64,000 nucleotides of DNA from Microlunatus soli. Its GTDB lineage: Bacteria; Actinomycetota; Actinomycetes; Propionibacteriales; Propionibacteriaceae. A model generated the notes under the pieces. It worked only from the letters and a program-made list of their open reading frames with translations, ran no database searches and was not told where the DNA came from. The stretch is taken from assembly GCF_900105385.1 (NCBI RefSeq), contig NZ_LT629772.1, positions 5,022,001-5,086,000 of the forward strand, written 5' to 3'. The translations under genes were made by a program, and so were the position numbers. Of this stretch, positions 23,964 through 61,434 are shown one piece after another; position 1 is the stretch's first letter, and each line of letters starts with the position of its first letter.

Positions 23964-26317
23964 CGGAGCCGACCGCGTCGGCAGAGCAATCTCCGCGTTC
24001 CGATCTTCGGCTGGTGCCGATCGCTGCGGCCGGCTGGGCCGGTAGTTGGTTGGGGACCGCGGGCAGGCCGCTGATGATCATGATCGGCGGCGCTCTCCTG
24101 GTGGTCGTCGTCCTGACGGCAACGCTTCGGCGGTCCTGGCTGCTGGCGGCCACCGCACTGATGCTGGCAGGAGCGCTCGGGCTCGGTTGGCTGCAGGCGT
24201 TCGCGTTGACCGGGTCGGCGGTCGGCCGGCTGGCCGGCTCCGGAGCCATCGCCCGGATCCACCTGGTCACCAAGGCGGATCCGATGATCAGGCCGCCCGA
24301 GGGCGTCCGCGGCGAGTATCTGACGGTCCGTGCGGTCCTGACCCAGGGCGACGGCAGGGGCCTGCAGTGGCGGGAACGGACACCGATCCTGCTGACGGCC
24401 AGTGGTGACGCGGTGCCCGGGTGGCGCGGCATGATCGCCGGCAGTTCGATGGTTGCGACGGTCAAACTGCAGACTCCGCAGCCGGGTTCGGACTTCGCCG
24501 CCGTGGCCCGTGCGGTCGGGCCGCCGAGGGAGGTCAAGCAGCCAGGACCGGTCGGTCTCTTCGTCGAACGGGTCCGGAGCGGACTGCGGCAGGCCGTCGC
24601 GCGCGGATCGCCGGAGCAGCGAGCGCTCGTTCCGTCCCTGGTGCTGGGCGACACCGCCGGGATCACCGACGACATCAAGGCCGACTTCCTGACCACCGGC
24701 CTGACCCATCTGACTGCCGTCTCCGGTGCCAATCTGGCGATCTTGATCGCGTTCTTGATGGTGTTGGCGCGGTGGGGCGGGGTGCGGGGTTGGTGGTTGC
24801 GGGTGGTGGGGTTGGCGGCGGTGGTGGTTTTCGTCCTGTTGTGTCGGACCGAGCCGTCGGTGTTGCGGGCGGCGGCGATGGGTTTGGTCGCGTTGGCGGC
24901 GTTGGGGATGTCTGGTCGGGCGGCCGGGCTGCGCAGTCTGTCGGTGGCGACGATCGTGTTGATCATGGTCGATCCGTGGTTGGGTCGGTCGTTGGGATTT
25001 GCGCTGTCGGTGCTGGCCACCGGTGGGATCGTGTGGTGGGCGCGGCGTTGGGTCCAGGCGATGCAGCGGTGGTTGCCGGTGATCTTCGCTGAGGCGGTGG
25101 CGGTGCCGTTGGCTGCGCATCTGGCGACACTGCCGGTGGCGGCGGCGATCTCGGGGCAGGTCAGCATGGTGGGGATCCTGACCAATGCGATCGCCGGACC
25201 GTTCGTCGGGCCGGCCACGGTGCTGGGGTTTGCGGCGGCCGGGCTGTCGCTGATGAGTGGCATGATCGCCGGCTGGGTCGGTCTGGTGGCCTGCTGGGCG
25301 GCGCAGCCGATTTTGTGGACGGCGCATTTCGGGTCGGCCCTGCCGGGTGCGTCGTGGAGTTGGCCGTCGAGTGCGGTCGCCTTGCTGGTGTTGGGTGCCG
25401 GTTGTCTGGCCGTCGCGTTGGTGATGCCGTGGGTGTTGCGGAGTCGGTGGTTGGCGCTGGGTGTCGCGGTGTTTATGGTCGTTGCGGTGGTCCGGGCGCC
25501 GGTGCAGCCGGGTTGGCCGCCGAAGGATTGGCTGTTGGTGGCTTGTGATGTCGGTCAGGGGGACGGACTGGCGGTGCGGGTGGGTGATCGGCAGGCGATC
25601 GTGATCGATACCGGTCCGGATCCGGCTCCGATCAGGCGCTGCCTGGACCAGCTCGGCATCCGCCGGGTTCCGTTGTTGATCTTGAGTCATTACCACGCTG
25701 ATCATGTCGGTGGCCTGGAGGGTGTGTTGGCGGGCAGGCGGGTGGAGCGGGTATGGACCTCGCCCTATCCGTCGCCGCCGCAGGAGGCCGCCGGGGTCGC
25801 GGATGTGGCCGGCGAGCTCGGGATCCCGTCGACGGTTCCCGAGGTCGGCGTCCGGGCGACCGTGGGGGCGGCAACGGTGGCCGTGCTGGGTCCGTCCGAT
25901 CGTGCCCCGACACCGACGCTGGCTGCGGACGGGGAGTCGTCGACGGAGAACGATCTGTGCCTGGTGGTCAAGATCACGATTGGCGGCGTACGGCTGCTGT
26001 TGACCGGTGATGTGGAGCCGGCGGAGCAGGAGCGGGTGTTGGCGTCGGGTGTTGATCTTGGTGCTGATGTGTTGAAGGTGCCGCATCATGGGTCGTCGCG
26101 GCAGGATGCTGGGTTTGTGGCGGCGACGGGTGCGCGGGTGGCGATCGCCAGTGCCGGGGTGGACAACGATTATGGTCATCCGGCGCCGCGGACGATGCAG
26201 CTGTTGCGTGGTGATGGGATGACCGCGTTGTGCACCTGTCAGCGGGGGTCGATCGCGGTCGCGGCGGCGAAGGCTGGGGGAGGTGATCTGGTGGTGATCA
26301 CCCAACGAACACCATGA
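23960..26317 (+). CDS. comEC: Competence protein ComEC/Rec2, DNA channel
   Basis: 785 residues; start coupled to comEA by ATGA. The N-terminal membrane segments and OB-like part (DUF4131) are followed by the Competence domain with 'HLTAVSGANLAILIAFLMVL'. The C-terminal metallo-beta-lactamase domain has the HxHxDH motif in 'LILSHYHADHVGGLEGVLA' near residue 575 and 'VLKVPHHGSSRQ'. It forms the inner-membrane channel for transforming DNA. Several blocks (roughly 24740-25110, 25300-25600 and 26030-26290) favour TTG, GTG and GGT codons, unlike flanking genes. The usual downstream neighbour holA is absent, and a dispersed repeat begins at the 3' end. Confidence 0.93.
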   Translation: MTEPTASAEQSPRSDLRLVPIAAAGWAGSWLGTAGRPLMIMIGGALLVVVVLTATLRRSWLLAATALMLAGALGLGWLQAFALTGSAVGRLAGSGAIARIHLVTKADPMIRPPEGVRGEYLTVRAVLTQGDGRGLQWRERTPILLTASGDAVPGWRGMIAGSSMVATVKLQTPQPGSDFAAVARAVGPPREVKQPGPVGLFVERVRSGLRQAVARGSPEQRALVPSLVLGDTAGITDDIKADFLTTGLTHLTAVSGANLAILIAFLMVLARWGGVRGWWLRVVGLAAVVVFVLLCRTEPSVLRAAAMGLVALAALGMSGRAAGLRSLSVATIVLIMVDPWLGRSLGFALSVLATGGIVWWARRWVQAMQRWLPVIFAEAVAVPLAAHLATLPVAAAISGQVSMVGILTNAIAGPFVGPATVLGFAAAGLSLMSGMIAGWVGLVACWAAQPILWTAHFGSALPGASWSWPSSAVALLVLGAGCLAVALVMPWVLRSRWLALGVAVFMVVAVVRAPVQPGWPPKDWLLVACDVGQGDGLAVRVGDRQAIVIDTGPDPAPIRRCLDQLGIRRVPLLILSHYHADHVGGLEGVLAGRRVERVWTSPYPSPPQEAAGVADVAGELGIPSTVPEVGVRATVGAATVAVLGPSDRAPTPTLAADGESSTENDLCLVVKITIGGVRLLLTGDVEPAEQERVLASGVDLGADVLKVPHHGSSRQDAGFVAATGARVAIASAGVDNDYGHPAPRTMQLLRGDGMTALCTCQRGSIAVAAAKAGGGDLVVITQRTP

Positions 26318-26337
26318 TTGTTGGTACTGGGCAGGAT

Positions 26338-26377
26338 ACCGAGGAGTCGCTCAGGGTGGGCTGTGACTCCATGACCG
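26338..26377. repeat. Dispersed direct repeat, copy 1
   Basis: 40-nt element, identical at 38 of 40 positions and in the same orientation as 61395-61434. A 12-nt block GAACACCATGAT precedes both copies (26307-26318 here, 19 nt away; 16 nt away in copy 2). It can fold as GGAGTC-GCTCA-GGG-TGGGC-TGT-GACTCC. On the minus strand both copies begin a short frame MxSxPTLSDSSV. It lies in the 173-bp gap between comEC and the ParB-like gene. Confidence 0.85.
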
Positions 26378-26490
26378 GTCGCGCTCCGGATGGTTGCGAT
26401 GACTGGTGTGTCGGGATGAGTTCGTTACCGCGGCTGCTACCCGGTTTCGTGGCGCCGGCTTGCTGTGCCGGCCTCCGTGAGGGACCATCT

Positions 26491-27312
26491 ATGTTTATGC
26501 GGAGCCGCGTTCAGACCATCACGCCAGCGAAGGCGGCAGAATTGTTGGAGGCGAACACCTCCAACCGGCCGTTGTCGCGTTCGACCGTTCAGTCGTTTGC
26601 CGAAGCGATGAAGCGAGGTGATTGGAAGGTCACGCACCAGGGCGTCGCTATCGACACCAACGGTGTGCTGGTTGATGGACAGCACCGGCTCGCTGCCATC
26701 GTCGAGGCTGATATGCCTGTCGAGCTGACGGTTTTCACCGACGTGCCCGCCGACACCTTCGATGTCCTCGACACCGGCAAGAAGCGCAATGCAGCTGACG
26801 TGCTGGCGATCGAGGGGGAGCGGTCGACGTTGCAGCTGGCTTCCATGGTGCGCACGGTGTGGCTTTACGACCACCGGCCCGATCTCAGCTGGTCCGGCGG
26901 GGCGGCCGCTGTTACCAATCACCAGATCTTGGCGACACTCGAGGCCAACCCGAAGCTCCGTGACTATGTCGTCCTCGGCGAGCAGCTTTCGCAGGAGGTC
27001 GGCATGATCAAGAGCGCCGCCGGGGCCGTTAGCTACCTGTTGTCGCGGGTGAACACGCAGCGGAAGCTGCAGCCGTGGTTCGACGGCATCATTGATGGCG
27101 CAGGGTTGACCCGTACCGATGCCCGTCTGAAGTTCCGCAACCTGATGCTGAACATGGCACGCCGGCAGGCCGGCGAGGTGCGGCGGCGACGCGACACTCG
27201 CGAGCATGTCGGCCTTTACCTGACGGCATTCAACGCCTGGGCCGCTGGGGAGAGCGTGTCCCGCTTGAGGTACGCAACTCGCGACCCGATGCCTGTCATC
27301 TCCAAGATCTAG
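26491..27312 (+). CDS. ParB/Srx-like domain protein, orphan
   Basis: 273 residues from the ATG at 26491, chosen because GAGGGA lies 6 nt upstream; the frame is open back to the end of comEC but lacks support there. The visible core, 'LSRSTVQSFAEAMKRGDWKV' then 'LVDGQHRLAAIVEADMPVEL', is the ParB/Srx-like fold seen in many phage- and mobile-element-borne proteins. A DNA-binding helix-turn-helix is not obvious, and the C-terminal half is helical and basic ('ARRQAGEVRRRRDTRE'). No ParA partner is nearby. This kind of gene usually marks mobile DNA, and it is the first gene inside the repeat-bracketed region. Confidence 0.72.
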   Translation: MFMRSRVQTITPAKAAELLEANTSNRPLSRSTVQSFAEAMKRGDWKVTHQGVAIDTNGVLVDGQHRLAAIVEADMPVELTVFTDVPADTFDVLDTGKKRNAADVLAIEGERSTLQLASMVRTVWLYDHRPDLSWSGGAAAVTNHQILATLEANPKLRDYVVLGEQLSQEVGMIKSAAGAVSYLLSRVNTQRKLQPWFDGIIDGAGLTRTDARLKFRNLMLNMARRQAGEVRRRRDTREHVGLYLTAFNAWAAGESVSRLRYATRDPMPVISKI

Positions 27313-27405: not shown

Positions 27406-28079
27406 CTACTTGTTGAGTGCATCGGCCGCCGACGGTGGCCACGGCAATTGCCAGGCGTATCTGTTGCCGGTCAGCGTGTCGGCTGCTGCGGGCCCCCAGC
27501 TTCCGGGCGCATACCGGTGAACCGGCGGAGGATAAGCGATCAATGGCTGGAGAATGCGCCAGCTTTCCTCGATTGCGTCGTCGCGTGCGAAGTATCGGTT
27601 GTCTCCGTTCAGCGCCGCATGGAGCAACCGTTCGTACGGTGGCAGGGGCTCGCCCAGGTCGCCGCTGAAGGTGCTGATCAGTGGTACTTCACGCCAGGTG
27701 AGGTCTCGGTCCAAAGCGGAGATCCGCAGTTGCATCCCGGCATCGGGGTCGATCCGTAGCACGATCTGATTGGCGGGTACATGCGACGGGGCGGGAAGGA
27801 ACGCGGGTCGAGGTGGTTCGCGAAGAATCAGCCGGACCTCGGTTGCCCGGACCGGAAGTTCCTTGCCGGCCCGGATCAGGACGGGCACGCCCGCCCAGCG
27901 CCAGTTGTCGATCTCCAGACGAACGGCTGCATAGGTTTTCGGTTGTCGAGTTGGGAGCGACTCCAGTGGTCCCGCGATAACCCTCGTATTGGCCACGCAC
28001 GTAGTGCTGAACCTCGGCTGTGAGGATCGCGCGCAACACCTCGACCTTCTTGTCCCATCGCCTACTCTCGGAGTCCCCG
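27406..28079 (-). pseudogene. Broken C-terminal fragment of glucose-6-phosphate dehydrogenase
   Basis: Read on the minus strand, 'DKKVEVLRAILTAEVQHYVR' (upstream part) and 'TYAAVRLEIDNWRWAGVPVL' through 'RYAPGSWGPAAADTL' are unmistakable zwf C-terminal sequence, about 220 residues. Two defects are visible. The first ~270 residues, including the NADP site and catalytic His, are missing. The frame also shifts at 27936-27939, where one extra T in a TTTT run (plus strand) separates 'APNSTTE' from 'TYAAV'. The downstream 196 codons stay open from 27996. No function is expected; it looks like debris from a recombination or deletion. Confidence 0.85.
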
Positions 28080-28604: not shown

Positions 28605-31600
28605 ATGGGCACCATCGACGCTGCCATTCGATCATCCTCACGCCGGATCCTTCCACTGCTCGCCGCTGCTGTCGTGCTGACGACGGTGGCCACGGTAGGT
28701 GTCACCCCCGCAACGGCAGGGCCCGCCGTGCGGCCACCGGCGCCCACAAGCGCGCCGGTCGTGATCCCATCGCTCAGCAACTGGCAGCCCGCACCTGGAA
28801 CCTTCGAGTTCGGCGAGCGCACCCGGATCGTGCTGGGTCCCAGCGCGCCAGCTCTGAAACGAACCGCTCGGACCCTCGCCGAAGACCTCGCGTCACGCTT
28901 CAGGACAACGACGCCCGTGGTCGAGCGGTCCAAACCGCAGAAGGGCGACATCGTCCTCGGTGTAGACGGGCACCGTGATGACCTGGGGGCCGAAGGCTAC
29001 GAGATGGTGGTGAGCGACATCGTGTACATCACCGGAGCAACAGACGACGGTGCGTTCTACGGCACTCGGACCTTGATCCAAGCGCTCGCGCCGAACCACC
29101 AGATCGCCGCAGGACGGACGGTCGATGTGCCGCGCTTTCCTGAGCGGGGAGTCGAAATCTGCCCGTGCATGGTCAAGTTGTCAATGGCGAGAATGCAGCG
29201 ACTGTTTCGCGAGATGGCGTTTCTTAAGCTCAACTACATGCTGCTGCCCTTGAAGATGATCAGCACCTCGCATCCCGAAACCAACCAGTGGAGCTACTAC
29301 ACCCGAGCTGAGGCCGAAGAACTCGCCGCGTTGGGAATGAAGTACCACGTCGAGGTGATACCGGAGATCAACGCGCCGGGTCACATGGAGCCGTACCTGT
29401 TCGATCGCCCTGATCTGCAGCTCACGGATCGGAACGGCAACCATAGCCCAGCACGCATGGATATCACCAAACCCGCGGCGTTCGACTTCTACACCGATCT
29501 CATCGACGAGTACGTCGGCGTCTTCCCCGGCCGTTACTGGCATCTCGGTGCCGATGAGTACATGACGTTCTCATCCTACGATTCCTACCCACAGATTGGC
29601 GCATACGCCCGCGAGAAGTTCGGACCAGACGCACGTCCGGAGGATGCATTCATCGACTTCATCAACAGGGTCGACGCCCACGTCAGGGGCACCCACGGGC
29701 GTACCATCCGCATCTGGAATGACGGCCTCCCCAGACGCAACGTCATCCCCGCTGAGCAAGGATCGCACCCAGGCCTGAACACCGATATCGTCATCGAACA
29801 CTGGCTTCCGAGCGAGGTGCTGCCTGAGGATTTCGTCGCCGCGGGATACACCATCATGAACGCTGCAAGCTCTCTGTACGAGGATCGCGGCTCCCGACCT
29901 TCTCCGCACTCGCTCTGCCCCCTGGACGCGACGCTGCATGACTGCGTTCAAACGCTCTGGAATGATGGGTGGGGGCCAACGACGTTCGAAGACGGGTCGA
30001 GCATTGCCGCGGGACCGCAGCTGACCGGGGCGCATCTCAGTCTTTGGCAGACCGATCCCGCCGCTGAAACCGAGCGCCAGATGGAGCAGGCAACCGCGTT
30101 GGCGCTGCGGTTCATCGCCGAGCGGACCTGGGGAGACGCGACATCTTTCATTTCTTACCGCGACTTCGTCGACAGGTCCCAAGCGCTCGGCAGAGCGCCG
30201 GGTTTCGCTGACTCCCTGGCGTTGCCGTTGGCCAGTGATGGAACCTACACCGTCCGCAGCGTTGGAGCCGGACCTCGCGGGTTCCTCACCGCCGAGAACG
30301 AGGAACCCGACAGTCACCTGCGCGTGGGAGACGCTCCCGCGGCATGGCAGCTCAGACGGACCGATGACGGCTACTACCAAGTCGAATCACCAACCAGCGG
30401 CCTCTGCATGGGCATGGATCTGCCCGGAGGCATCGCGCTATTGGAGTCAGATCCCGGCGTCGGGGCAGAGCCAAATCAGCAACCCTGCGACTCCCGCGCA
30501 AACGCTCAGAAGTGGGAGATCACCCGCAATGGCCGATCGCTCTACACGATCACCAATGCACTATCCCAGCTGGTCACCCGGGGCGAGGCCGACGGGACCG
30601 TCGTGCAGGACGTTCCCAATAAACCGCGCGCGAGTTGGGACATCCAGCTCGAGGTCGCCGCCACCTTGAGGGTCGAGTCCGAAACGCGGCTGCTCGAACC
30701 GAACCAGCCGAACACAGTACAGCTGAGGTTGGAGAACCACGGCAGCCACGACCTGCACAACGTCGAACTCAACCTAATTGCACCAGATCATTGGAGAGTG
30801 CGTTCCGCGGGTGGCGTCTCGTTCGACACAGTGGCTGCCGGCACGACCGTGCGAACCAACTTCGAGGTCATTCCACCCGACATGTCGAGGGGCACAGGTG
30901 CAGCATCTCTGCTGCGTGGCGCCGCGTACTTCGCTGGGGATGGCGGGCGGAGGTCCGTCGAGGGGACTGAACGAGTCCGCGTAGACCCTGTTGCCTGCGC
31001 CGATCCCGACACTCAACCGGTCCCAGCGGACGACGAGTTCGACGGCACACAACTGGATGGTTGTCGATGGACACGTGTGATCAATCCTGACCTGCAGACC
31101 ATGAGCGTCGGTGACGGGAGGCTGCATATCATCACAGAACCTGGGGATCTGGTGGGAGGACCACCCGACGGCGCGAAGAATGTCGTGCTACAGCGGGCCC
31201 CGACAGGCGACTGGACAATCGAGACCAAGATGCAGGCACACCTGATGGAGTCCTACCAGCAGGGCGGACTGATGGTGCACGATGACGATGACAACTACGT
31301 CGAGTTCGTGCTGGCCACCGAGAATCCTCCGGGTGCGACCCCCAACCTTTACCTGTCGTTGGTCTCTGAGATGGATGGTGAGTTCCGAAAGGGTGGAGCG
31401 GTCAACCTCTTCGGACCCCCAGGGGACTCCGACGAGGTCTGCTGGCTCCGACTGAGCAAGACCGGCAGTGCCTACACCGCAGCCTTCAGTACCGATGGTG
31501 AGTCGTGGCGCCCGATGCCTGGCAATGTGACCAATCCCCAACTCCCGGACCCATACGTCGGGCTGGTGGCCGTCGGCCCGATGCAGCAGGCAGCGACCGA

Positions 31601-31634
31601 CGTCTGGTTCGACTACTTCCGCAGTCACCGATGA
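28605..31634 (+). CDS. Secreted GH20 beta-N-acetylhexosaminidase, multidomain
   Basis: 1009 residues, ATG preceded by GGGAGAG. The signal peptide is 'RILPLLAAAVVLTTVATVGV' ending near Ala-Gly at 38. Residues ~55-180 are the GH20b domain. The GH20 barrel follows, with the catalytic Asp-Glu pair in HLGADEY (D317-E318). After ~540 come a ricin-like lectin segment ('QLRRTDDGYYQVESPTSGLC'), a NEW3/CARDB-like sandwich ('NTVQLRLENHGSHDLHNVEL'), and a C-terminal concanavalin-like DUF1349/GH43_C2 module ('ADDEFDGTQLDGCRWTRV'). It should release GlcNAc or GalNAc from chitin, glycoprotein or peptidoglycan fragments outside the cell. It has its own transcript and the AraC gene is convergent with it. Confidence 0.9.
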   Translation: MGTIDAAIRSSSRRILPLLAAAVVLTTVATVGVTPATAGPAVRPPAPTSAPVVIPSLSNWQPAPGTFEFGERTRIVLGPSAPALKRTARTLAEDLASRFRTTTPVVERSKPQKGDIVLGVDGHRDDLGAEGYEMVVSDIVYITGATDDGAFYGTRTLIQALAPNHQIAAGRTVDVPRFPERGVEICPCMVKLSMARMQRLFREMAFLKLNYMLLPLKMISTSHPETNQWSYYTRAEAEELAALGMKYHVEVIPEINAPGHMEPYLFDRPDLQLTDRNGNHSPARMDITKPAAFDFYTDLIDEYVGVFPGRYWHLGADEYMTFSSYDSYPQIGAYAREKFGPDARPEDAFIDFINRVDAHVRGTHGRTIRIWNDGLPRRNVIPAEQGSHPGLNTDIVIEHWLPSEVLPEDFVAAGYTIMNAASSLYEDRGSRPSPHSLCPLDATLHDCVQTLWNDGWGPTTFEDGSSIAAGPQLTGAHLSLWQTDPAAETERQMEQATALALRFIAERTWGDATSFISYRDFVDRSQALGRAPGFADSLALPLASDGTYTVRSVGAGPRGFLTAENEEPDSHLRVGDAPAAWQLRRTDDGYYQVESPTSGLCMGMDLPGGIALLESDPGVGAEPNQQPCDSRANAQKWEITRNGRSLYTITNALSQLVTRGEADGTVVQDVPNKPRASWDIQLEVAATLRVESETRLLEPNQPNTVQLRLENHGSHDLHNVELNLIAPDHWRVRSAGGVSFDTVAAGTTVRTNFEVIPPDMSRGTGAASLLRGAAYFAGDGGRRSVEGTERVRVDPVACADPDTQPVPADDEFDGTQLDGCRWTRVINPDLQTMSVGDGRLHIITEPGDLVGGPPDGAKNVVLQRAPTGDWTIETKMQAHLMESYQQGGLMVHDDDDNYVEFVLATENPPGATPNLYLSLVSEMDGEFRKGGAVNLFGPPGDSDEVCWLRLSKTGSAYTAAFSTDGESWRPMPGNVTNPQLPDPYVGLVAVGPMQQAATDVWFDYFRSHR

Positions 31635-31675: not shown

Positions 31676-32566
31676 TTATAATTCGTCACTCGCTCGGAGC
31701 AGCATGCGTGCGACCGCCAGTAGTTGTGCGTCCCGCACCGGCCACAGCGGATCGGTCAACGGCTGACGGCAGCGGAACGCCTTCGGCGGGGCGCCGTAGG
31801 TCTGATGGAACCGACGCGAGAAGTGGTACGGGTTACAGAATCCACTTCTGGCTGCAATCTCACTGATGGTGTCGTTGCTGCGCTGCAGCGCGGTCGCCGC
31901 CTGACTCAGCCTGATGAGTTCCAAGGCCCGTGATGGCCCACAGCCGTACGCGTGCTTGAAAGTCCGATGCAGGTAGCCGATGGACACGTGCGCGGAAGCA
32001 GCTAGATCGGACACCGGTACCTGCCGCTGTCCGTCCGTCGCCCAGAGTCGGGCAACATACTCACTCATCCGGCCGACCGGTGCCGGAACCTCTTCGCGGT
32101 CACTGCGGTGTGGGCCGCTGACGAACAGGTCCAGCACCAGCTGGACGATCTGATCACTGCGACGCTTGCTCTGTGCCGAGGGCTGGCCGGCCAACTCCAG
32201 CAGATAATCACACAGACCCTCCAACACAGGAGCATCGGCCAAAGTCCGCACCGATGGCCACGATGCCGGGGTGCCGAGGTGGCCAGCATCGAGCAGTTCG
32301 AAATGGACATAGGCATGTCGCGACGGGCCAGCTGTGTCCCACCGATAGCAATCGCGATTGCCCTGACGCGACAAGGCCACCGTCCCCGGACGCAGCAGCT
32401 GCGACTCCGTACCGCGGTGCTGCCCATCCGCATCCAGGATCTCGGTGCACAACTGGGCGGACCCCCGCAACAACCAGACCAGCTCGAAGTTCGGCAACAG
32501 CCGGGGGCCGTACACCGACCCCGGTGAATAGTCGGCCACCTGTACCGGGTTCTGAACGAAGATCAT
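31676..32566 (-). CDS. AraC-family transcriptional regulator
   Basis: 296 residues from the ATG at 32566 (GGAG just upstream); an in-frame ATG at 32644 would add 26 residues but leave almost no room for the divergent promoter. The N-terminal cupin-like sensing domain ('NFELVWLLRGSAQLC') is followed by two AraC helix-turn-helices, 'VSDLAASAHVSIGYLHRTFK' and 'ISEIAARSGFCNPYHFSRRF'. It is divergent from the PhyH/ABC importer/GH172/sialidase-like operon, which it most likely activates in response to a sugar. Confidence 0.88.
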   Translation of the reverse strand: MIFVQNPVQVADYSPGSVYGPRLLPNFELVWLLRGSAQLCTEILDADGQHRGTESQLLRPGTVALSRQGNRDCYRWDTAGPSRHAYVHFELLDAGHLGTPASWPSVRTLADAPVLEGLCDYLLELAGQPSAQSKRRSDQIVQLVLDLFVSGPHRSDREEVPAPVGRMSEYVARLWATDGQRQVPVSDLAASAHVSIGYLHRTFKHAYGCGPSRALELIRLSQAATALQRSNDTISEIAARSGFCNPYHFSRRFHQTYGAPPKAFRCRQPLTDPLWPVRDAQLLAVARMLLRASDEL

Positions 32567-35475: not shown

Positions 35476-35530
35476 CCGCGAGGCACGTCCCTTGCTCGAT
35501 CGCCACTACTGCCCAACGGAGAGTTCCCTC

Positions 35531-38244: not shown

Positions 38245-38306
38245 ATCGACCTGACGATCATCTGGACGCCCCCTCTCGGGCCCGTTTCCTAAGGACTGTG
38301 ACCGCC

Positions 38307-40142: not shown

Positions 40143-40191
40143 ATGTGCCGCGGTCGGAGTATGTGGCTGCTTGCTATCTCGCGGCAACGGA

Positions 40192-42297: not shown

Positions 42298-42299
42298 GG

Positions 42300-44643: not shown

Positions 44644-44700
44644 CGTGATCGCCCCTTCGCTTCCTCGAGAAGGTCTGTTGCATGCCCTCACCAACACGGC

Positions 44701-44716: not shown

Positions 44717-44725
44717 TGATGTCAA

Positions 44726-44741
44726 GGTACACCAGTCAACC
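44726..44741. promoter_or_regulatory. LacI-type operator 2
   Basis: GGTACACCAGTCAACC fits the same 16-bp pattern, 25 bp from operator 1. On the minus strand it includes TTGACT, a possible -35 element of the importer operon. Confidence 0.75.
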
Positions 44742-44786
44742 TGAATCAGACAAGGGATCCAGGCCCTCGAGCGATAGGGTGTTGCC

Positions 44787-47898: not shown

Positions 47899-47907
47899 GA
47901 CGCCTAA

Positions 47908-47923
47908 GGTAAACTGGTAAACC
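47908..47923. promoter_or_regulatory. LacI-type operator 3
   Basis: GGTAAACTGGTAAACC differs from operator 1 at one position. It is 10 bp upstream of the GH42 ATG. Confidence 0.8.
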
Positions 47924-47973
47924 TCTTGACTGCAAGAGATTCCACAAGGTCTTGCATGCATCTCGACTACTGC

Positions 47974-47989
47974 GGTATACCAGTAAACC
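47974..47989. promoter_or_regulatory. LacI-type operator 4
   Basis: GGTATACCAGTAAACC, 22 bp before the GH16 start. It overlaps TATACC (47976-47981), which is 17 bp from TTGCAT (47953-47958), a plausible promoter; binding there would block RNA polymerase. Confidence 0.8.
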
Positions 47990-48010
47990 TCAACTCTGTG
48001 GAGGTCGACG

Positions 48011-53092: not shown

Positions 53093-53346
53093 GCCTGCGC
53101 TGGCGCCGATCGATATACCCGACGGCTCGACTGCATGGTCGATCTGATCGAGCGTGGACACCTCGACCAGATCCTGATCTCGCAGGACATCTGTCACAAG
53201 ACGAACCTGCGCAGGTGCGGCGGTGAGGGCTACACCCACATCCTGCGGCATGTGGTGCCACTGATGCGACGTAAGGGTTCACCGAGGATCAGATCCGGAC
53301 GATCACGTTCGATAATCCTTGTCGGGCGCTGTCGTTTGGCCGCTGA
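53093..53346 (+). pseudogene. C-terminal remnant of a phosphotriesterase-family amidohydrolase
   Basis: The frame reads 'IERGHLDQILISQDICHKTN', then 'GYTHILRHVVPLMRR'. After a one-base loss in the GGG run at 53275-53277 it continues in another frame as 'GFTEDQIRTITFDNPCRALS' to a TGA at 53344. This is the last ~80 residues of a PTE-like enzyme, including the conserved metal-ligand Asp (in the position of the family's SHD motif, here SQD). Everything upstream is missing. It overlaps the 3' end of the GntR gene by 44 nt on the opposite strand. Confidence 0.75.
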
Positions 53347-54031
53347 GCAGGTCGGGCCGCTGACCGGGCCGGACGCCTCGGCTGTCGGTCGCGGCAATCT
53401 GAGCGATGACGCTGTCCAGATGCGCCCGCATGGCGGCCTCCGCCTCGGCAGGTTCGCCGGCGCGGATGGCCTCGATGATCGCGAGATGTTGTGGCAGTGA
53501 TTCCTGCGGTCGACCGGGGCGACGGGCGAGTCGGAACTGGAATCGAACCGTTTGCGCGTTCAGGCGCTCCAGCTGGCGCGCAGCCACGTATTGGCCGCTC
53601 ATCTCGATCACCAGTGAGTGCAGCTCACGGTTCAGGGCTGAGTAGCCTTCGAGGTCTGCCTGCTCGACTGCTGTGCGCATGCTGTCCGCGATCGATGCGA
53701 GTGTCTCGCGCTGAGCGGCGGTGCCACCCTCGGCGGCCTTCCGGGCGCAGAGACACTCCAGGGCCGAACGGCATTCGGTGACCTGGATGGCTTCCTCGAC
53801 CGAGACCACTCGGATCCGCGCGCCGCGGTTGGGGATGAGCTCGACGAGCCCGTCGCTGGCCAGGTCCGACAGGGCTTCCCGCACCGCACTGCGGCTGACC
53901 TCGTAGGCCTCGGAGAGGTCGAGTTCGACGAGCCGCTGTCCGGGTACGAGATCTCCCTCGCGCAAGGCTTCGCGGATCTGTTCTGTCACCCGTTCCCGGG
54001 CCACCCGTCCTGCCAGCTGTTTGGCCGCCAC
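53303..54031 (-). CDS. GntR-family regulator, FadR/FCD subfamily
   Basis: 242 residues. The GTG at 54031 has an ideal GGAAGGAG six bases upstream; the longer frame to 55000 is antisense to the hydratase. The N-terminal winged helix is 'VTEQIREALREGDLVPGQRL' then 'SEAYEVSRSAVREALSDLAS'. The helical FCD effector domain follows ('NRELHSLVIEMSGQYVAARQ') and probably binds a carboxylic acid. It is divergent from the ligJ-type gene and likely controls that operon in response to a pathway intermediate. Confidence 0.9.
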   Translation of the reverse strand: MAAKQLAGRVARERVTEQIREALREGDLVPGQRLVELDLSEAYEVSRSAVREALSDLASDGLVELIPNRGARIRVVSVEEAIQVTECRSALECLCARKAAEGGTAAQRETLASIADSMRTAVEQADLEGYSALNRELHSLVIEMSGQYVAARQLERLNAQTVRFQFRLARRPGRPQESLPQHLAIIEAIRAGEPAEAEAAMRAHLDSVIAQIAATDSRGVRPGQRPDLLSGQTTAPDKDYRT

Positions 54032-54107
54032 TCGGCGCTCCTTCCTCGACTGCGGCCCTGATTCTAGCCACGATCCGACAAGCTTTCCGAAAATATCGTT
54101 CACTAGA

Positions 54108-54117
54108 TTGTCAACAA
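54108..54117. promoter_or_regulatory. Candidate GntR operator
   Basis: TTGTCAACAA contains symmetrical TTGT/ACAA arms around a 2-bp centre. It lies in the 180-bp gap between the divergent gntR and ligJ-type genes. FCD-type GntR sites usually have GT-n-AC cores; the spacing here is similar but not identical. Confidence 0.45.
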
Positions 54118-54211
54118 CTCTGTCGACGACTATGGTGACGAAAGTCGGTGGGGTAGCTGCCACGCCGGCGCGACGTGATCGGACACCGTCGAAGGGCGAG
54201 GAGGCACACGG

Positions 54212-55237
54212 GTGATCATCGATTGTCATGGCCACTACACGACGGCTCCGTCGTCGCTGGCCGGGTGGCGCGATCGGCAGACGCTGGCCTTCGAGCAGCG
54301 GACCGACGCCCCGTCCGCGGCGGACCTGGTGATCTCCGATGACGAAGTACGGGCCAGCATCGAGGACAATCAGTTGCGACTGATGGACGAGCGTGGAGTC
54401 GACGTGACGATCTTCTCGCCCCGGGCATCCTTCATGGCTCACCACATCGGCGACCTCGCAACCTCCGAAGCCTGGGCACGCGTCTGCAACGATCTGTGTG
54501 CCCGTGTCGGCCAGCTGTTCCCGGGGCGGTTCAGTCCGGCCGCGATGTTGCCGCAGTCCCCGGGCGTGGACCCGGCGACCAGCGTTCCCGAACTTGTCCG
54601 GGCTGTCGAGGAGCTCGGCGCCGTCGCCGTCAATCTCAACCCCGATCCCTCCGGCGGCTGTTGGGACTCGCCACCACTGACCGACCGCTCGTGGTACCCG
54701 ATCTATCAGAAGCTGGTCGAGCTGGACGTGCCGGCGATGATCCATGTCAGCACGACCATCAACCCCGCCTTCCACACGACCGGATCGCACTACCTCAACG
54801 CCGACACCACCGCGTTCATGCAGTTGATCACCGGCGACCTGTTCTCCGACTTCCCGGACCTGCGATTCGTCATCCCGCACGGCGGCGGCGCGGTTCCCTA
54901 CCACTGGGGCAGGTTCCGTGGCCTGGCCCAGAGTCTGGGCAAGCCCGACCTGTCCGAGCACGTCCTTCGCAACGTGTATTTCGACACCTGCGTGTACCAC
55001 CAGCCGGGCATCGACACCTTGCTAAAGGTCATTCCCGCAAAGAACGTGTTGTTCGGGTCGGAGATGGTCGGCGCGGTTCGCGGCATCGATCTGGAGACCG
55101 GTTATGCCTTCGACGACACCCGTCGCTACGTCGAGGCGGCGGGCCTGTCGGCCGACGACCTCGCCGACATCGAACACCGGAACGCGCTGACGGTCTATCC
55201 CCGGCTGGCCGAACACCTTGCAGGTACTGCAGCGTGA
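54212..55237 (+). CDS. ligJ: 4-oxalomesaconate hydratase (LigJ type)
   Basis: 341 residues, GTG start. It resembles LigJ of Sphingobium throughout: 'IIDCHGHYTTAPSSL' with the metal-binding HxH (H6, H8), 'SPRASFMAHHIGDL', 'PAMIHVSTTINPAFHTTGSH', 'VIPHGGGAVPYHWGRFRGLA' and 'VLFGSEMVGAVRGID', where the Glu matches the catalytic glutamate of LigJ. The enzyme adds water to 4-oxalomesaconate (4-carboxy-2-hydroxymuconate) to give 4-carboxy-4-hydroxy-2-oxoadipate in protocatechuate 4,5-cleavage and gallate degradation. It is first in the operon under the divergent GntR regulator. Confidence 0.9.
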   Translation: MIIDCHGHYTTAPSSLAGWRDRQTLAFEQRTDAPSAADLVISDDEVRASIEDNQLRLMDERGVDVTIFSPRASFMAHHIGDLATSEAWARVCNDLCARVGQLFPGRFSPAAMLPQSPGVDPATSVPELVRAVEELGAVAVNLNPDPSGGCWDSPPLTDRSWYPIYQKLVELDVPAMIHVSTTINPAFHTTGSHYLNADTTAFMQLITGDLFSDFPDLRFVIPHGGGAVPYHWGRFRGLAQSLGKPDLSEHVLRNVYFDTCVYHQPGIDTLLKVIPAKNVLFGSEMVGAVRGIDLETGYAFDDTRRYVEAAGLSADDLADIEHRNALTVYPRLAEHLAGTAA

Positions 55238-55263
55238 GCCGACGTCGACCGGAGGAAATGATC

Positions 55264-55947
55264 ATGAACGAACTGGGTGTGGTGCACCGCAGGGTCGTCC
55301 GCGCCGATGCTGAAGTCGTCGCGCGCCTCGCCGACCTGGATGTCGCAACGATCCATGAGGTGATGGGACGGACAGGGCTGATGCGTCCGTATCTGCGGCC
55401 GGTCTACGCCGGCGCCCGGACCTGCGGAACCGCCGTCACTGTGCTGCTGCAGCCGGGGGACAACTGGATGCTGCATGTGGCCGCCGAACAGGTGCAACCG
55501 GGTGATGTCGTGGTGGCCGGCTGCACCACCGAGTCCGCGGACGGCTTCTTCGGCGAACTGCTGGCCACCTCGTTGCGGGCTCGCGGCGCGCGCGGCCTGG
55601 TCATCGACGGAGGATGCCGAGACGTGGACCAACTGCAGGAGATGGACTTTCCCGTGTTCAGCCGAGCGGTGAGCGCGAAGGGGACCGTGAAGTCGACGCT
55701 CGGGTCGGTCAATGTCCCGGTGGTCTGCGCGAATGCCCTGGTGCACCCCGGCGACGTCGTGCTGGCCGACACCGACGGCATCGTTGTCGTGCCGGCGGCT
55801 TCGGCCGAGGCCGTCGCCGAAGCCGGGGAACGGCGTCGGGACAACGAGGCCGGTAAACGCGCACGGTTGGCAGGCGGCGAACTCGGGCTCGACATGTACG
55901 ACATGCGCGGCGCGCTGGCTGCAAAAGGCCTGCGATATGTCGACTGA
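55264..55947 (+). CDS. ligK: 4-carboxy-4-hydroxy-2-oxoadipate aldolase (LigK/RraA family)
   Basis: 227 residues from the ATG at 55264, 8 nt after GGAGG (ATG 55258 is too close). RraA-fold class II aldolase with the Mg-binding Arg-Asp pair R119-D120 in 'GLVIDGGCRDVDQLQEM' and the substrate loop 'VVVAGCTTESADGFFGELLA'. In this context it should cleave 4-carboxy-4-hydroxy-2-oxoadipate to pyruvate and oxaloacetate, the step after LigJ. RraA-fold paralogues with other roles exist, but the LigJ neighbour makes the aldolase assignment strong. Confidence 0.88.
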   Translation: MNELGVVHRRVVRADAEVVARLADLDVATIHEVMGRTGLMRPYLRPVYAGARTCGTAVTVLLQPGDNWMLHVAAEQVQPGDVVVAGCTTESADGFFGELLATSLRARGARGLVIDGGCRDVDQLQEMDFPVFSRAVSAKGTVKSTLGSVNVPVVCANALVHPGDVVLADTDGIVVVPAASAEAVAEAGERRRDNEAGKRARLAGGELGLDMYDMRGALAAKGLRYVD

Positions 55948-56001
55948 TCAATGCGCCGTTCCGGTCGGCGTCCTGGCAACGTTCCACGAGGGGAGAGCAC
56001 A

Positions 56002-56859
56002 GTGAGTACAACGATCGACGCGCATACCCATGTCATCGCTGTCGACGAGGAGAGCTATCCGGTCGATCCGATCGGCGGGAAGCGTTCGACCTGGTCGACC
56101 GAGCATCCGGTCGACATCGACGGTCTGCTGCGGGCCCTCGACACCGCCGGCGTCGAGCGGTCCGTCGCGGTCCAGGCCTCCACGGTGTACGGGCACGACA
56201 ACAGCTACGTCGCCGAGGCAGTCCGCCGACACCCCGATCGCTTCATCGGCGTCTACTCGATCGATGCGATGGCGTCGGACGCCGTCCAGAAGATCCAGCA
56301 CTGGCAGGGTTTCGGGCTGTCCGGCTTCCGGCTGTTCACCACAGGCACCACGATGCCCGGACAGGCCGACTGGCTGGGCGACCCGGCCTCCTACCCGGCG
56401 TGGTCCTACGCCCAGGAGCACGGGATCCCGATCTGTTTGCAGATGACCCTCGACGGGATCCCGGCACTGCAACGCACGCTGGCGGAGTTTCCAAGGTCCC
56501 GAGTCGTCCTGGACCATTGCGCCCGCCCGGTGCTGTCCGACGGCGCTCCCTATCGCCGTGCTCAGGGCCTGTTCGATCTTGCCGAGCATCCCGGTGTGTA
56601 CCTGAAACTCACCCATCGAGCACTTCAGGCAGCAGCAGAAGGAAGGTCGACCGTCGAGGAGTTCCTCGCCGCGCTGGTGGAAACGTACGGCTCCGAGCGA
56701 CTGATGTGGGGATCCAACTACCCCGCGGCGTCGGGAGAGCTGGTGGATCTGGTCGCCGCAGCCCGTGGCGAGCTGAGCAGCCTTTCCGAGGAGGACCTGG
56801 CCAACGTGTTCGGCCGTACGGTGGCGGCGTTCTACGCTCTCGACGAGAAGGACGCCTGA
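56002..56859 (+). CDS. Amidohydrolase_2 family protein, LigI (PDC lactonase)-like
   Basis: 285 residues from the GTG at 56002, preceded by GGGGAGAG; the frame is open upstream to 55951. COG3618-type barrel with 'IDAHTHVIAVDE' at the N-terminus, 'RSVAVQASTVYGHDNSYVAE', 'RSRVVLDHCARPVLS' and 'LMWGSNYPAASGEL'. Where LigI has the base Asp in WGTDWP, this protein has Asn. LigI hydrolyses 2-pyrone-4,6-dicarboxylate to the LigJ substrate, which fits the neighbours, but lactonases of other sugar or aromatic acids share the fold, so the reaction is inferred. Confidence 0.72.
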   Translation: MSTTIDAHTHVIAVDEESYPVDPIGGKRSTWSTEHPVDIDGLLRALDTAGVERSVAVQASTVYGHDNSYVAEAVRRHPDRFIGVYSIDAMASDAVQKIQHWQGFGLSGFRLFTTGTTMPGQADWLGDPASYPAWSYAQEHGIPICLQMTLDGIPALQRTLAEFPRSRVVLDHCARPVLSDGAPYRRAQGLFDLAEHPGVYLKLTHRALQAAAEGRSTVEEFLAALVETYGSERLMWGSNYPAASGELVDLVAAARGELSSLSEEDLANVFGRTVAAFYALDEKDA

Positions 56860-56860
56860 A

Positions 56861-57754
56861 ATGAGCGATACCAGGCCGCAGCTCCGGGCTGCGTTCGGGA
56901 ATCACCCGATCGGCGACGTCCTCAGGTCGGGGGCGGTCGATGATCCCCGGGTCCGGCTGGCCCATGAGGCGGTGTCGCCGATCCACAAGGCATTCGCCCC
57001 GATGGTGACCGATCAGGCCTACGACGTGAGTGAGCTGGCGATCGTCACGGGATTGCAGGCGATCGGCTACGACCATCCGATCACCCTGATGCCGGTTGTG
57101 CTGGCGGCACGCTTCCAGCGCGGATGTCTTGTCACTCGCAGCGCCGATCCGATCGACGCCCGGCATCTTCGCGGCCGGCGGGTCGGCGTGCGTGCCTACA
57201 CGCAGACGACCGGCTTCTGGGTCCGGACACACCTGGCTGAGGACTATCGGATCGCATCCCAGGACGTCGCATGGGTCACCCAGAATCCTGCTCACGTCCC
57301 CGAATACCAGGACCCGACGTTCGTCGAACGGACCCTGCGGGGAAGTCTGGAGGATGCGCTGCGAGCAGGACAGATCGACGCAGCGATCTTCGGCAATGAT
57401 CTGCCCGTCGGCGACGAATTCGTCCCGGTCATCGACCGGCCGGACGAGCGAGACAGGGAATGGTTCGGGGCCAACGGGTACGCGCCGATCAACCATCTCG
57501 TGGCGGTGTCGACCTCGGTGATCGACGCCCACCCAGAAGCCGTCGTTGGAGCCCTCGACCTGCTCGTCCGCGCCGAGGAACTGGCCGCCGGTTGTACCGA
57601 TGGGGCACGCCTGACGATGTCCGGACTGGAACGCCTGCGTGGACCGGTGGACGCCATCGCGCGAGCCTGTTACGACCAGGGCATGCTGCCGCGGCCGCTC
57701 AGCTCCGACGAGGTCTTCGGCCCGATCACCGATCTGCTTGCCCAGCACTCCTGA
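56861..57754 (+). CDS. 4,5-dihydroxyphthalate decarboxylase-like protein (PBP2 fold)
   Basis: 297 residues starting one base after the amidohydrolase stop. The sequence 'DDPRVRLAHEAVSPIHKAFA', 'VSELAIVTGLQAIGYDHPIT' and 'RRVGVRAYTQTTGFWVRTHL' matches the pattern of the Pht5 family. This family has a periplasmic-binding-protein-like fold but decarboxylates 4,5-dihydroxyphthalate to protocatechuate. No signal peptide or lipobox is present, so it is an enzyme or cytoplasmic binder, not an ABC receptor. It would link phthalate-type acids to the 4,5-cleavage intermediates, though no phthalate dioxygenase is seen here. Confidence 0.75.
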   Translation: MSDTRPQLRAAFGNHPIGDVLRSGAVDDPRVRLAHEAVSPIHKAFAPMVTDQAYDVSELAIVTGLQAIGYDHPITLMPVVLAARFQRGCLVTRSADPIDARHLRGRRVGVRAYTQTTGFWVRTHLAEDYRIASQDVAWVTQNPAHVPEYQDPTFVERTLRGSLEDALRAGQIDAAIFGNDLPVGDEFVPVIDRPDERDREWFGANGYAPINHLVAVSTSVIDAHPEAVVGALDLLVRAEELAAGCTDGARLTMSGLERLRGPVDAIARACYDQGMLPRPLSSDEVFGPITDLLAQHS

Positions 57755-57838
57755 TCTGGCACACGCACGGCGGGATGCGTTTCCTTCCCTCCCCGCACTC
57801 GACGCACCGCAAGGAAGCACTGCAGAGAAGAGGCCGAC

Positions 57839-59179
57839 ATGTCCACATCGAAGACCACACCCCCGACAGAGCGTGATCAAGGAGCAGGCTTTCGCTGGGC
57901 CTCGCTGAGCCCGTTCGGGAAGCCGCTGCACCGGGATCTGACGTTCCAGGTCCTGGTCGGGATGATCGTCGGCGTGCTGCTGGGGATCGTCGTCCCTGCT
58001 GTTGGGGTCAATCTCAACCTGGTCAGCACCCTCTTCATCCATCTCATCCAGATGATCGTCGGGCTGGTCGTGTTCTGCACGGTCACTCTCGGGATCGCCA
58101 AGGTGCGTGACTTCGGCAAGGTCGGCAAGATCGCCATCAAGGCGATCCTCTACTTCGAGATCATCACCACCTTCGCGCTGGCGATCGGGTTGATCATGAT
58201 CAACATCCTGCAGCCGGGTGTCGGGATGCATATCAACCCGGCCGACCTCGACGGTGCCGATCAGGTCACGGCAGCGAAGCCGATGACGTTCTCCAGTTTC
58301 ATTATCGGTCTTGTCCCGACCAGCGCGGTCGGAGCATTCGCCGAAGGCAATGTGTTGCAGATCCTGGTGTTCTCCGCCCTCTTCGGGTGTGGGGTGGCAG
58401 CGGTCGGGGCCAAGGCCGACCCGCTGGTCCGGGGTATCGATTCGGTGCAACGGAGCTTGTTCTGGGTGATCGGGAGGATCATGCGACTTGCGCCGCTCGC
58501 GGCGTGCGCAGCCATCGCCTACTCGGTGTCGTCCTACGGCCTGGATTCGCTGCTGTCGTTGGGTGCTCTGGTGCTGGAGTTCTTCCTCACCGTGATCGTC
58601 TTCTTCTTGATCATCTTCTGGCCGGTCTCGCGGATCGCCGGTATCAGCCTGTGGAAGATGATGCGCTACTTCCGCGAGGAGCTGCTGCTGGTGATCGGCA
58701 CCAGCTCGTCGGAGAGTGTGTTCCCCCAGCTCACCGTCAAGCTGACCAGGCTCGGTATCAAGGAAGAGGTCGTCGGTCTCGTTCTGCCGACGTCCTACAG
58801 CTTCAACCATGACGGGACCTGCCTGTACTGGGCGGCCACCAGCGTCTTCCTGGCCCAGGCGACCGATACGCACCTCGGCCTGGGTGGACAGCTCAGCCTG
58901 ATGTTCGTACTGCTGCTGACCTCGAAGGGTGGAGCGGGCGTCTCCGGTTCCGCGATCCCGATGCTCGCGCTCACCCTCGCTGCCACCGGGACGATTCCGG
59001 TGGCCAGCGTCGCGCTCATCCTCGGTGTGCACAAGATCCTCTCCGGTGCGTTCGTCTTCACCAACATCGCCGGCAACTGCCTGGCAACGATCTTCGTGGC
59101 GAAGACGGAGAAGGCGATCGACTGGACGATCATGCGCCGTGAACTCGACTCCGGCGGAATTCGCCAGCCGACCCGTTGA
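57839..59179 (+). CDS. DctA/DAACS-type dicarboxylate:cation symporter
   Basis: 446 residues. Eight membrane segments plus two re-entrant hairpins are predicted. Signature loops are the serine-rich 'LVIGTSSSESVFPQ', the cation/substrate site 'SYSFNHDGTCLYW', and 'LTSKGGAGVSGSAIPMLALT', as in the C4-dicarboxylate and glutamate symporters. It is the last intact gene of the cassette, 84 bp after the decarboxylase-like gene, and presumably brings in the di- or tricarboxylic acid degraded by the upstream enzymes. Confidence 0.9.
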   Translation: MSTSKTTPPTERDQGAGFRWASLSPFGKPLHRDLTFQVLVGMIVGVLLGIVVPAVGVNLNLVSTLFIHLIQMIVGLVVFCTVTLGIAKVRDFGKVGKIAIKAILYFEIITTFALAIGLIMINILQPGVGMHINPADLDGADQVTAAKPMTFSSFIIGLVPTSAVGAFAEGNVLQILVFSALFGCGVAAVGAKADPLVRGIDSVQRSLFWVIGRIMRLAPLAACAAIAYSVSSYGLDSLLSLGALVLEFFLTVIVFFLIIFWPVSRIAGISLWKMMRYFREELLLVIGTSSSESVFPQLTVKLTRLGIKEEVVGLVLPTSYSFNHDGTCLYWAATSVFLAQATDTHLGLGGQLSLMFVLLLTSKGGAGVSGSAIPMLALTLAATGTIPVASVALILGVHKILSGAFVFTNIAGNCLATIFVAKTEKAIDWTIMRRELDSGGIRQPTR

Positions 59180-59239
59180 CCCCCCGGGAACCTCGGCGAC
59201 CGCCAGCTCAGCCCGCCGCGGCGAGACTGAAGGTTCTAC

Positions 59240-59904
59240 CCTCTGGGCCTTCCCCTTCATGTGGACCTGCTCGACATGGGGGCGGCGGACCATCTGGCTG
59301 CCCCTGACCCGGCTCGAACAGGAAGCTGAGAACAGCACCGGCATCCCCGGTCACCAGCTACGTTTCGACGACTTCACACCCGTGTCTGGGGCCATGCGCC
59401 GCTACTGGACTGCGACTATGAACCTGGTCAACGGCGCCGTTATCGACAAAGACACGCCCCTACAGTCTCCACTGCTGGCCGAGGAGATGACCCGGCTGGC
59501 AGCAGTTGCAGCTCTGCACACCTTTCCCAACACCGCATTGTCGCGGCATCACCTACCTACGCCCGGGCACGTGATGCCAGCCCCGATACGACGAGCAATC
59601 GCCTACATCGAGGAACACGCCACTGAACCGATCGGCCTGACCGAGATCGCCGCAGCAGCGAGTATCAGCCCCCGCGCCCTGCAATACGCCTTTCGGCGCC
59701 ATCACGAAACGACGCCGCTTACCTACCTACCTACGCCGCGTCCGGCTGGACCATGCTCGCCGTAACCTGCAAGCAGCCGATCCCACCCAAGGAGAGACGG
59801 TCAAAGCGATCGCGGCACGATGGGGATTCCCGCGGCCAGACCGCTTCGCGGCTCGCTATCAAGAGGCCTTCGGGGTGCCACCCAGCCACACATTGCGATC
59901 CTGA
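59240..59904 (+). pseudogene. AraC-family regulator, N-truncated and frameshifted at a TACC repeat
   Basis: From about 59313 the frame encodes an AraC_binding_2-like tail and the first HTH ('LTEIAAAASISPRALQYAFR'), then 'HHETTPLTYLPTPRPAG' and a stop at 59763-59765. Moving one frame after the (TACC)3 tract at 59720-59731 restores the family continuation: 'YLRRVRLDHARRNLQAADPT', 'TVKAIAARWGFPRPDRFAAR' and an end at 59902-59904. Removing one TACC unit would join the two halves exactly. The first ~130 residues are absent or scrambled. The gene sits just after the DctA-type carrier and may once have regulated it. Confidence 0.82.
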
Positions 59905-60339: not shown

Positions 60340-61293
60340 ATGAATGCAGCGCGACCGGTGCCGACTCGAGACGACGTGGTCGGCTACTTCGACAGGCTGT
60401 CGAACTGGGGGCGATGGGGCGACGACGATGAGCTCGGCACCCTGAACCACATCACCGACGAGGTCCGGCTCACGGCGGCGCGGACGGTGCGCCACGGCAG
60501 GAGCGTGTCGTGCGCGTGGGAGGTCAAAGCACCCGAAGAGATGGAACGATCGACGAACTCATGCCCGCGCGCAGCTGACATGCCAGGGGCCGAAGCCATG
60601 CCTGCGGCGTTCCATAACGACCGGCGGTGGGGCTTCTCGAACGAGCACCTGGGCATCATGTTCCACGGCAACACCATCACCCACCTGGACTCTCCGTGCC
60701 ACATCTTCTGGGACGGCACGATGTACAACGGGCGCCCGCATTCTTTGGTCGACGCCGCAACGGGCTCGGCATGGGCAGCTGTCACGGCGGCGGGGAGCGG
60801 GATCGTCACGCGGGGTGTCTTGCTGGACGTCGCGGCGGTCCGCGATTCGCCGTGGTTGGAACCGGGTGACGGGGTGTATCCCGAGGATCTCGAGGCGGCC
60901 GAGAGCCGACAAGGCGTCCGGGTGCGGTCCGGAGACGCGGTGCTCCTCCGGACCGGTCGTGGCCGTGTCCGTCACGAGGGCGGTGAGGCGGGCGGTATGG
61001 TCCAGGCCGGTTGGCACGCGTCCTGTCTGCCGTGGCTGCACGAGCGGGAGGTCGCGCTGATCGGCGCCGACACTCCGCAGGACGTTCAGCCGTCGGGATA
61101 CGACGACATACTGATGCCGGTTCACGCCGTCAGCCTCGTGGCAATGGGGCTCTGGCTGCTTGACAACTGCGATCTGGAGCTGTGCGCGAGGACAGCTATG
61201 GCACTCGGTCAGTGGGAGTTCCAACTAGCAGTCGCGCCGGTCCGCTTCGCCGGAGTCTCCGGCAGTCCGGTCAATCCGATCGCCACCTTCTAG
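60340..61293 (+). CDS. Cyclase-family metal-dependent hydrolase (kynurenine formamidase fold)
   Basis: 317 residues, ATG. The family signature is 'GNTITHLDSPCHIFWDG' (normally HxGTHxDxPxH), giving the metal-binding His/Asp/His set, and 'RTGRGRVRHEGGEAGGMVQA' is also typical. Members hydrolyse amides, lactones or isatin-like rings. Its partner is unknown. It is transcribed away from the AraC pseudogene, and its 3' end is followed by the second copy of the dispersed repeat. It could serve aromatic catabolism with the LigJ cassette, but there is no operon link. Confidence 0.85.
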   Translation: MNAARPVPTRDDVVGYFDRLSNWGRWGDDDELGTLNHITDEVRLTAARTVRHGRSVSCAWEVKAPEEMERSTNSCPRAADMPGAEAMPAAFHNDRRWGFSNEHLGIMFHGNTITHLDSPCHIFWDGTMYNGRPHSLVDAATGSAWAAVTAAGSGIVTRGVLLDVAAVRDSPWLEPGDGVYPEDLEAAESRQGVRVRSGDAVLLRTGRGRVRHEGGEAGGMVQAGWHASCLPWLHEREVALIGADTPQDVQPSGYDDILMPVHAVSLVAMGLWLLDNCDLELCARTAMALGQWEFQLAVAPVRFAGVSGSPVNPIATF

Positions 61294-61394
61294 GCCACGG
61301 GGAAAGCGGTCGTGCGCATGCGGTCACCGCGCAATCTGGAAGGCCGGCATCGACCGCCGTACCGCGGAACACCATGATCAGCGGACGCCTGTGA

Positions 61395-61434
61395 ACCGAG
61401 GAGTCGCTCAGGGTGGGCTCTGACTGCATGACCG
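61395..61434. repeat. Dispersed direct repeat, copy 2
   Basis: Same orientation as 26338-26377, with two substitutions (G/C at 61420 and C/G at 61426). It is preceded by GAACACCATGAT at 61367-61378. It lies in the 286-bp non-coding gap between the cyclase gene and the ROK gene. Confidence 0.85.

Follow-up and report, generated by a model that had tools for sequence, protein, structure and literature searches.

A block of about 35 kb in the chromosome of Microlunatus soli, lying immediately behind the gene comEC and bracketed by two near-identical direct repeats, may be the decayed remnant of a genomic island that inserted at the comEC 3' end, with the repeats as its ends; we give this reading a probability of roughly one half. 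The block belongs to a stretch of 64,000 nucleotides (the window: positions 5,022,001 to 5,086,000 of contig NZ_LT629772.1, assembly GCF_900105385.1), and coordinates below count from its first base unless a chromosomal position is named. A first-pass annotation, made from the sequence of the window alone, had already proposed the repeats as recombination or attachment ends of an island. In favour of an island, two same-orientation copies bracket the block, the second copy is accompanied by the terminal bases of comEC, and the left boundary in codon use falls at repeat 1; a gene of a phage and plasmid family beside repeat 1, and gene remnants inside the block, point the same way.

The two repeat copies (26338-26377 and 61395-61434, both on the plus strand) share 38 of their 40 bases, including all of the first 25; to their right the similarity is weaker (17/26 over the next 26 nt, p 5.5e-5) and extends up to 26403 and 61460, respectively. 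Upstream of both stands the 12-nt block GAACACCATGAT, at 26307-26318 (+) and 61367-61378 (+). A recount bore out the coordinates, identity, orientation and preceding block first reported, as well as the position of copy 1 directly behind comEC: 26307-26317 are the last 11 bases of that gene, its TGA (26315-26317) falls inside the 12-nt block, and one further base completes it. Copy 2 carries GAACACCATGA, an 11/11 match to the genome's own comEC end; comEC of the nearest relative, 70% identical, ends GATCACCGTGA. Base composition over 64 kb predicts about 1.6e-5 exact 25-mers and 3e-10 matches of 38/40 by chance; for a 12-nt block upstream, within 40 nt and 5 diagonals, the figure is about 5e-5. 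The length of the repeat by itself is unexceptional, because other intergenic exact repeats of at least 22 nt, many of them palindromic or tandem, occur in a genome sample of 524 kb (400 kb plus the 124-kb neighbourhood of the window); copy number and placement carry the weight. Comparison by eye of the open frames of both copies gave no clear coding signature. The spacer between the 12-nt block and the repeat core is 3 nt longer in copy 1 (19 nt) than in copy 2 (16 nt); this difference keeps all frames and therefore decides nothing on a coding origin of the repeat.

The genome (one contig, 6,732,914 bp) holds two copies of the repeat, which disposes of the dozens of scattered copies that the first-pass annotation had named as a refutation. 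With a 221-nt query the next best match after these two has an E of 1.29, and a 19-nt core allowed up to 3 mismatches was found at five further places, all with 3 mismatches (reversed control: three). A dispersed repeat of the repetitive extragenic palindromic (REP) type was rejected on this ground, there being two copies rather than many. In related genomes the repeat is at control level: a 23-nt core searched in 391 genomes of the order (our own included) matched in 19 and its reversed control in 13, and the matches in the 18 others carry 3 mismatches (17 genomes) or 2 (one). A 21-nt core matched in 14 of 19 congeners, always with 2-3 mismatches; G003, G004 and G012, the three nearest relatives, gave no match at up to 3 mismatches. 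Collections from which our own records may be left out gave no exact 23-mer (genome_contigs), no exact 19-mer (viral_contigs) and no stretch similar to the repeat (plasmids and phages), and an attachment (att) site known from phages, plasmids, viral contigs or genome contigs was rejected for want of a match.

Codon use changes exactly at repeat 1. Genes were called with a simple in-house caller and scored relative to a background of 259 genes, each 200 aa or longer, drawn from 20 stretches of 20 kb spread over this genome; the background mean synonymous score is 0.396. The 19 genes lying between 26.3 and 55.1 kb have a mean of 0.176 (p 8e-11), so that the relaxed codon use first judged by eye is now measured. 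Moving rightwards, the means are 0.299 for five genes in 55.1-61.4 kb (p 0.0095), 0.354 for 25 genes in 61.4-93.4 kb (p 0.002) and 0.438 for eight genes in 93.4-104 kb (p 0.26); 33 upstream genes average 0.404 (p 0.67). The GC content falls from 67.2% upstream to 63.4% in the bracketed block and is 65.7% in 61.4-93.4 kb. Composition thus differs from that of the host, weakly in the rightmost 6 kb. When 109 genes over 124 kb are segmented by codon use at two points, the best solution runs from 26497, the first gene after repeat 1, to 55216, and the segment bounded by the repeats ranks 22nd of 5777.

That first gene (26497-27312, +; its open frame extends up to 26314) encodes a ParB-like protein and, judged by similarity, belongs to a family found in phages and plasmids. 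Phage records with a match to the protein number 90 and plasmid records 20, all below 60% identity; 10 of 145 other genomes also have a match. The protein resembles phrog_5931 (function unknown) and phrog_12305 (ParB-like, E 0.007) and matches nothing in Pfam or NCBIfam. Orthologues of 72-86% identity occur in G003, G004 and G012 and share no neighbours within 20 kb. Side by side (L089, L090 and L091), the gene has four different surroundings in four related species, and homology ends near the gene edges. In 100-120 kb around each of these three orthologues, no repeat lies directly beside the gene as it does here: G003 has an exact 22-nt pair and two 18-nt pairs that straddle it, with the nearest copies about 6 kb or more away; in G004 no pair straddles it; and in G012 none does among 14 listed of 23 pairs.

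The last gene before repeat 2 (60340-61293, +) encodes a cyclase with a 96% copy in its own genome at 6351009-6351988, from which it differs by 28 synonymous and 10 non-synonymous codons; relatives at 81-83% are present in G009 and G019. The copies stand in different surroundings, and homology stops at the gene edges or no more than 26 nt from them (in G009 and G019 the surroundings were judged by eye over some 1.5 kb to either side). The sister copy (G000:C1:6351009-6351988; L142, L164) lies 336 bp from a chromosomal dif-like site at 6350652-6350673, which has one mismatch to what we take to be the dif consensus.

For the island we envisage the following course. A DNA block would have inserted immediately behind the comEC stop codon, the two repeats being its ends; comEC would have been left intact, and a second copy of its 3' terminus, with neighbouring sequence, would have been left at the far end. 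Integration of the att type or of the Campbell type (single crossover of a circle) would leave such a far-end copy. The block would since have decayed, its recombinase being gone or having acted in trans and several genes having become pseudogenes; the 6 kb adjoining repeat 2 on its inner side were probably replaced or added later. Insertion as one unit, the direction of transfer and the loss of a recombinase are what we infer rather than observe. The two 38/40 copies provide flanking direct repeats (attL/attR) in a putative att role, and island ends are our best reading of them, not a demonstrated one.

As an island seated behind a protein-coding gene, the block would be known in kind. According to PMC4057263, the Streptomyces island PAISt has one att at the bacA 3' end and the other in a duplication of the bacA end; its att is an 8-bp palindrome, one copy of which lies within the 141-bp bacA duplication, and it has the integrase gene intSt. 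The related PAISs1 and PAISa1 are described there with an integrase remnant only and degenerate ends. Our block resembles PAISt as a large actinobacterial island with a gene-end copy at the far end; unlike PAISt, it has a duplicated gene end of 11-12 nt and, apart from that, a 40-nt block, and the pieces scanned gave no remnant of an integrase. Our literature search turned up nothing on this locus.

Several observations weigh against an island. The 16-19-nt spacers of the two copies show no recognisable similarity, although the element on either side of them is conserved; this would not be expected of a plain duplication and is the oddest detail of the pair. The genome has other intergenic repeats. 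The right codon change-point, at about 55.2 kb, lies 6 kb inside repeat 2; GC and codon bias do fall inside the block, but the codon boundary agrees with the repeat on the left and not on the right. Blocks of low codon score are not unique either, since low scores are found in two of the 20 background stretches as well (L147, mean 0.23; L164, 0.29). As the first-pass annotation had it, there is no integrase among the proteins and pieces scanned, nor did these give any match to conjugation, replication or transposase functions; the gap pieces covered were eight, plus three references covering such pieces. The conjugation or replication genes of an integrative and conjugative element, actinomycete type included (ICE/AICE), are missing among the Pfam matches of the block. 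Genome-wide, PF00589 found two proteins, both Xer-like and the only tyrosine recombinases found (their scores exceed the general model NF001399 and narrowly miss the equivalog cut-offs for XerC and XerD), and PF00239 found one resolvase over cut-off at 6.11 Mb, about 1 Mb from the block, with three weak ones. The window contains no tRNA or tmRNA gene, a common though not required insertion site; the site would be the 3' end of a protein gene instead. Of the proposal that the repeats are attachment ends, the two copies, the left boundary and the comEC end in copy 2 have therefore held, and the right boundary, an integrase, a tRNA and a dif-like motif have not been forthcoming.

The last point against an island comes from the congeners, and it also speaks for the main rival: the interval between comEC and holA would be a hotspot with piecemeal, integrase-free turnover, the 35 kb would not be one insertion unit, and the repeat pair would be an incidental private duplication. 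We hold this to be a serious, if tentative, possibility. A comEC match was found in all 19 congeners, in two pieces in G010 and G014, and the comEC regions of 15 were compared. A holA match follows comEC in 12 of these 15, at about 0.1, 2.3, 2.3, 2.4, 2.4, 2.4, 4.2, 4.6, 7.3, 7.8, 8.7 and 12.0 kb, with differing genes between, versus 77 kb here (the first part of holA was compared); the match in G003 has the Pfam delta-subunit C-terminal domain with S20 beside it, and the comEC stretches examined in G009, G018 and G019 gave no holA match. The interval is thus one between core genes whose content differs across relatives. The block is absent at the comEC locus in the congeners examined, and it was seen in order in none of the 19, among the best 15 candidates per genome, so relatives with the same 35 kb in conserved order, the other refutation named at the outset, did not appear.

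In the nearest relatives, comEC is followed by 1-4 kb and then by orthologues of the genes from 93.4 kb (G003) or 97.6 kb (G004 and G012) onwards; at this locus they lack 26.3-93.4 kb or more, not merely 26.3-61.4 kb. No empty site is seen for exactly the 35-kb segment, because at this locus the nearest relatives are also without the next 32 kb beyond repeat 2. Parts of the right-hand segment are present at other places in congeners (81.1-83.1 kb, for instance, is matched at 86-87% in G004 and G012), and some matching segment exists for 27.3-47.0 kb in at least 13 of 19 congeners and for 47.0-62.9 kb in at least 4 of 19; these searches scored the best 15 candidates per genome, and weaker matches can be missed. 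Turnover is also favoured by the different surroundings of both edge genes in relatives, by the other intergenic repeats and by the finding of PMC5635113 that half of hotspots show no evidence of mobile elements. The present interval shares with such hotspots a variable core-gene interval, content that differs across relatives and the lack of an integrase or tRNA; unlike our block, they are not defined by bracketing direct repeats. What piecemeal turnover leaves unexplained is a two-copy repeat exactly at the left codon boundary and a comEC-end block in copy 2: it accounts for the interval in its entirety but not for where the repeats lie. The two readings, decayed island and hotspot, can both be partly true.

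It is doubtful that the repeat works as a signal between genes, be it an operator, a terminator hairpin or a binding site of the ParB-like kind, and stands at two places for reasons unrelated to insertion. The similarity is complete in the 25-nt core and fades rightward, the layout is block-spacer-block, and copy 1, near the ParB-like gene, can form a GGAGTC...GACTCC hairpin; the folding of the copies as DNA is, however, not clearly better than that of shuffles (z -1.32 and -0.20), and the gene after copy 2 runs towards that copy. Rfam gave no family at threshold over the window and two weak matches far below thresholds for the copy 1 region alone, and a riboswitch or other RNA was rejected on these results. 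A binding site for the ParB-like protein was rejected too, as the element (up to 3 mismatches) was not found in the three relatives with 72-86% identical ParB-like proteins. We consider it very unlikely that the layout (12 nt, 16-19 nt, a 25-nt core fading outward) represents a bipartite recombination site of an unrecognised kind, by which cargo without an encoded integrase would be inserted exactly behind the comEC stop by a host recombinase in trans.

Integrative mobile elements exploiting Xer (IMEX), or XerCD-dif elements, would account for the lack of an own integrase. Integration of this kind by the host XerCD, to which the Xer-like proteins as only PF00589 hits and the dif-like site beside the sister of the right-edge cyclase could point, is highly improbable here, since the repeat does not resemble dif: its core agrees with the consensus we assume at no more than 13 of 34 positions, ungapped, and both dif-like ends and the repeat as dif were rejected on this count. 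In the window extended by 20 kb to the left and 40 kb to the right, the closest dif-like sequence differs at 4 positions; it is situated at 73.9 kb, beyond the block.

Preferring the decayed island, we describe the block from its left anchor, comEC (23960-26317, +; PF03772, PF00753), which is intact. Its content is mostly sugar-use genes and looks foreign; assignments below are from Pfam, which also found the zwf, phosphotriesterase and AraC remnants first recognised by inspection. Behind the ParB-like gene follow a zwf C-terminal fragment, a pseudogene (27406-27888, -; PF02781, model positions 145-295 of 296; a longer open piece also matched), a GH20 multidomain protein (28605-31634, +), an AraC-type regulator (31676-32566, -), a PhyH dioxygenase (32673-33563, +), and sugar ABC permeases with a solute-binding protein (33617-37201, +), similar to a cluster at 2.90 Mb in the same genome that matches 33.67-38.15 kb at 68-73%. 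DUF2961 and BNR-repeat proteins (+) and an apiosidase-like protein (-) occupy 37438-41451. The BNR protein found no relative in genome_contigs, yet this null is a sensitivity miss, because the DNA of this gene is matched at about 70% in both G009 and G019. Further right are a second sugar ABC system (-) with a LacI-type sensor (+) at 41470-45818; a GH42-like frame with a partial match (45472-48180, -; PF02449, 44 bits versus a cut-off of 21, model positions 34-188 of 376); a GH16-like protein, a DegT aminotransferase and a 472-aa protein (48074-51569, +); the phosphotriesterase remnant (53093-53308, +; PF02126, 33.9 bits versus 22.4, model positions 224-279 of 298); and a GntR/FCD regulator (53303-55000, -), after which the right codon change-point follows. 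The final part, with codon use nearer that of the host, comprises an RraA-like protein, an amidohydrolase, a 297-aa protein and an SDF symporter (55258-59179, +), and, ahead of the cyclase, an AraC remnant in two frames (59172-59901, +; the second piece above the PF12833 cut-off, the first below). The first gene outside the block encodes a ROK repressor (61580-62791, -; codon score 0.310, 15th percentile of background).

Some further features were recorded in passing. The genome contains a dispersed intergenic palindromic repeat family, REP-like, with the core TTTCTCCCCGACACGCC or variants (L151:10130-10200; L158:5887-5952, 9780-9845 and 11687-11747; L146:6674-6738). The window has a loopless 38-nt inverted repeat at 18213-18288 (arms 87% complementary) and a 15-nt tandem repeat at 22272-22331, within a called coding frame. 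Stretch L147 (G000:C1:430001-450000) is itself low in codon adaptation (against the mean of 0.396). The two-piece comEC match of G010 (G010:C1:3720772-3724393; L072) has a 296-aa frame called between its pieces, and the comEC match in G019 holds one internal TGA.

The case illustrates a limit of island calls based on repeats, as the left end is well supported and the right end is not. The two repeats nevertheless offer a concrete candidate pair of island ends, and the comEC-holA interval appears to be a place of repeated gene gain in the genus, a part of the chromosome where related species vary.

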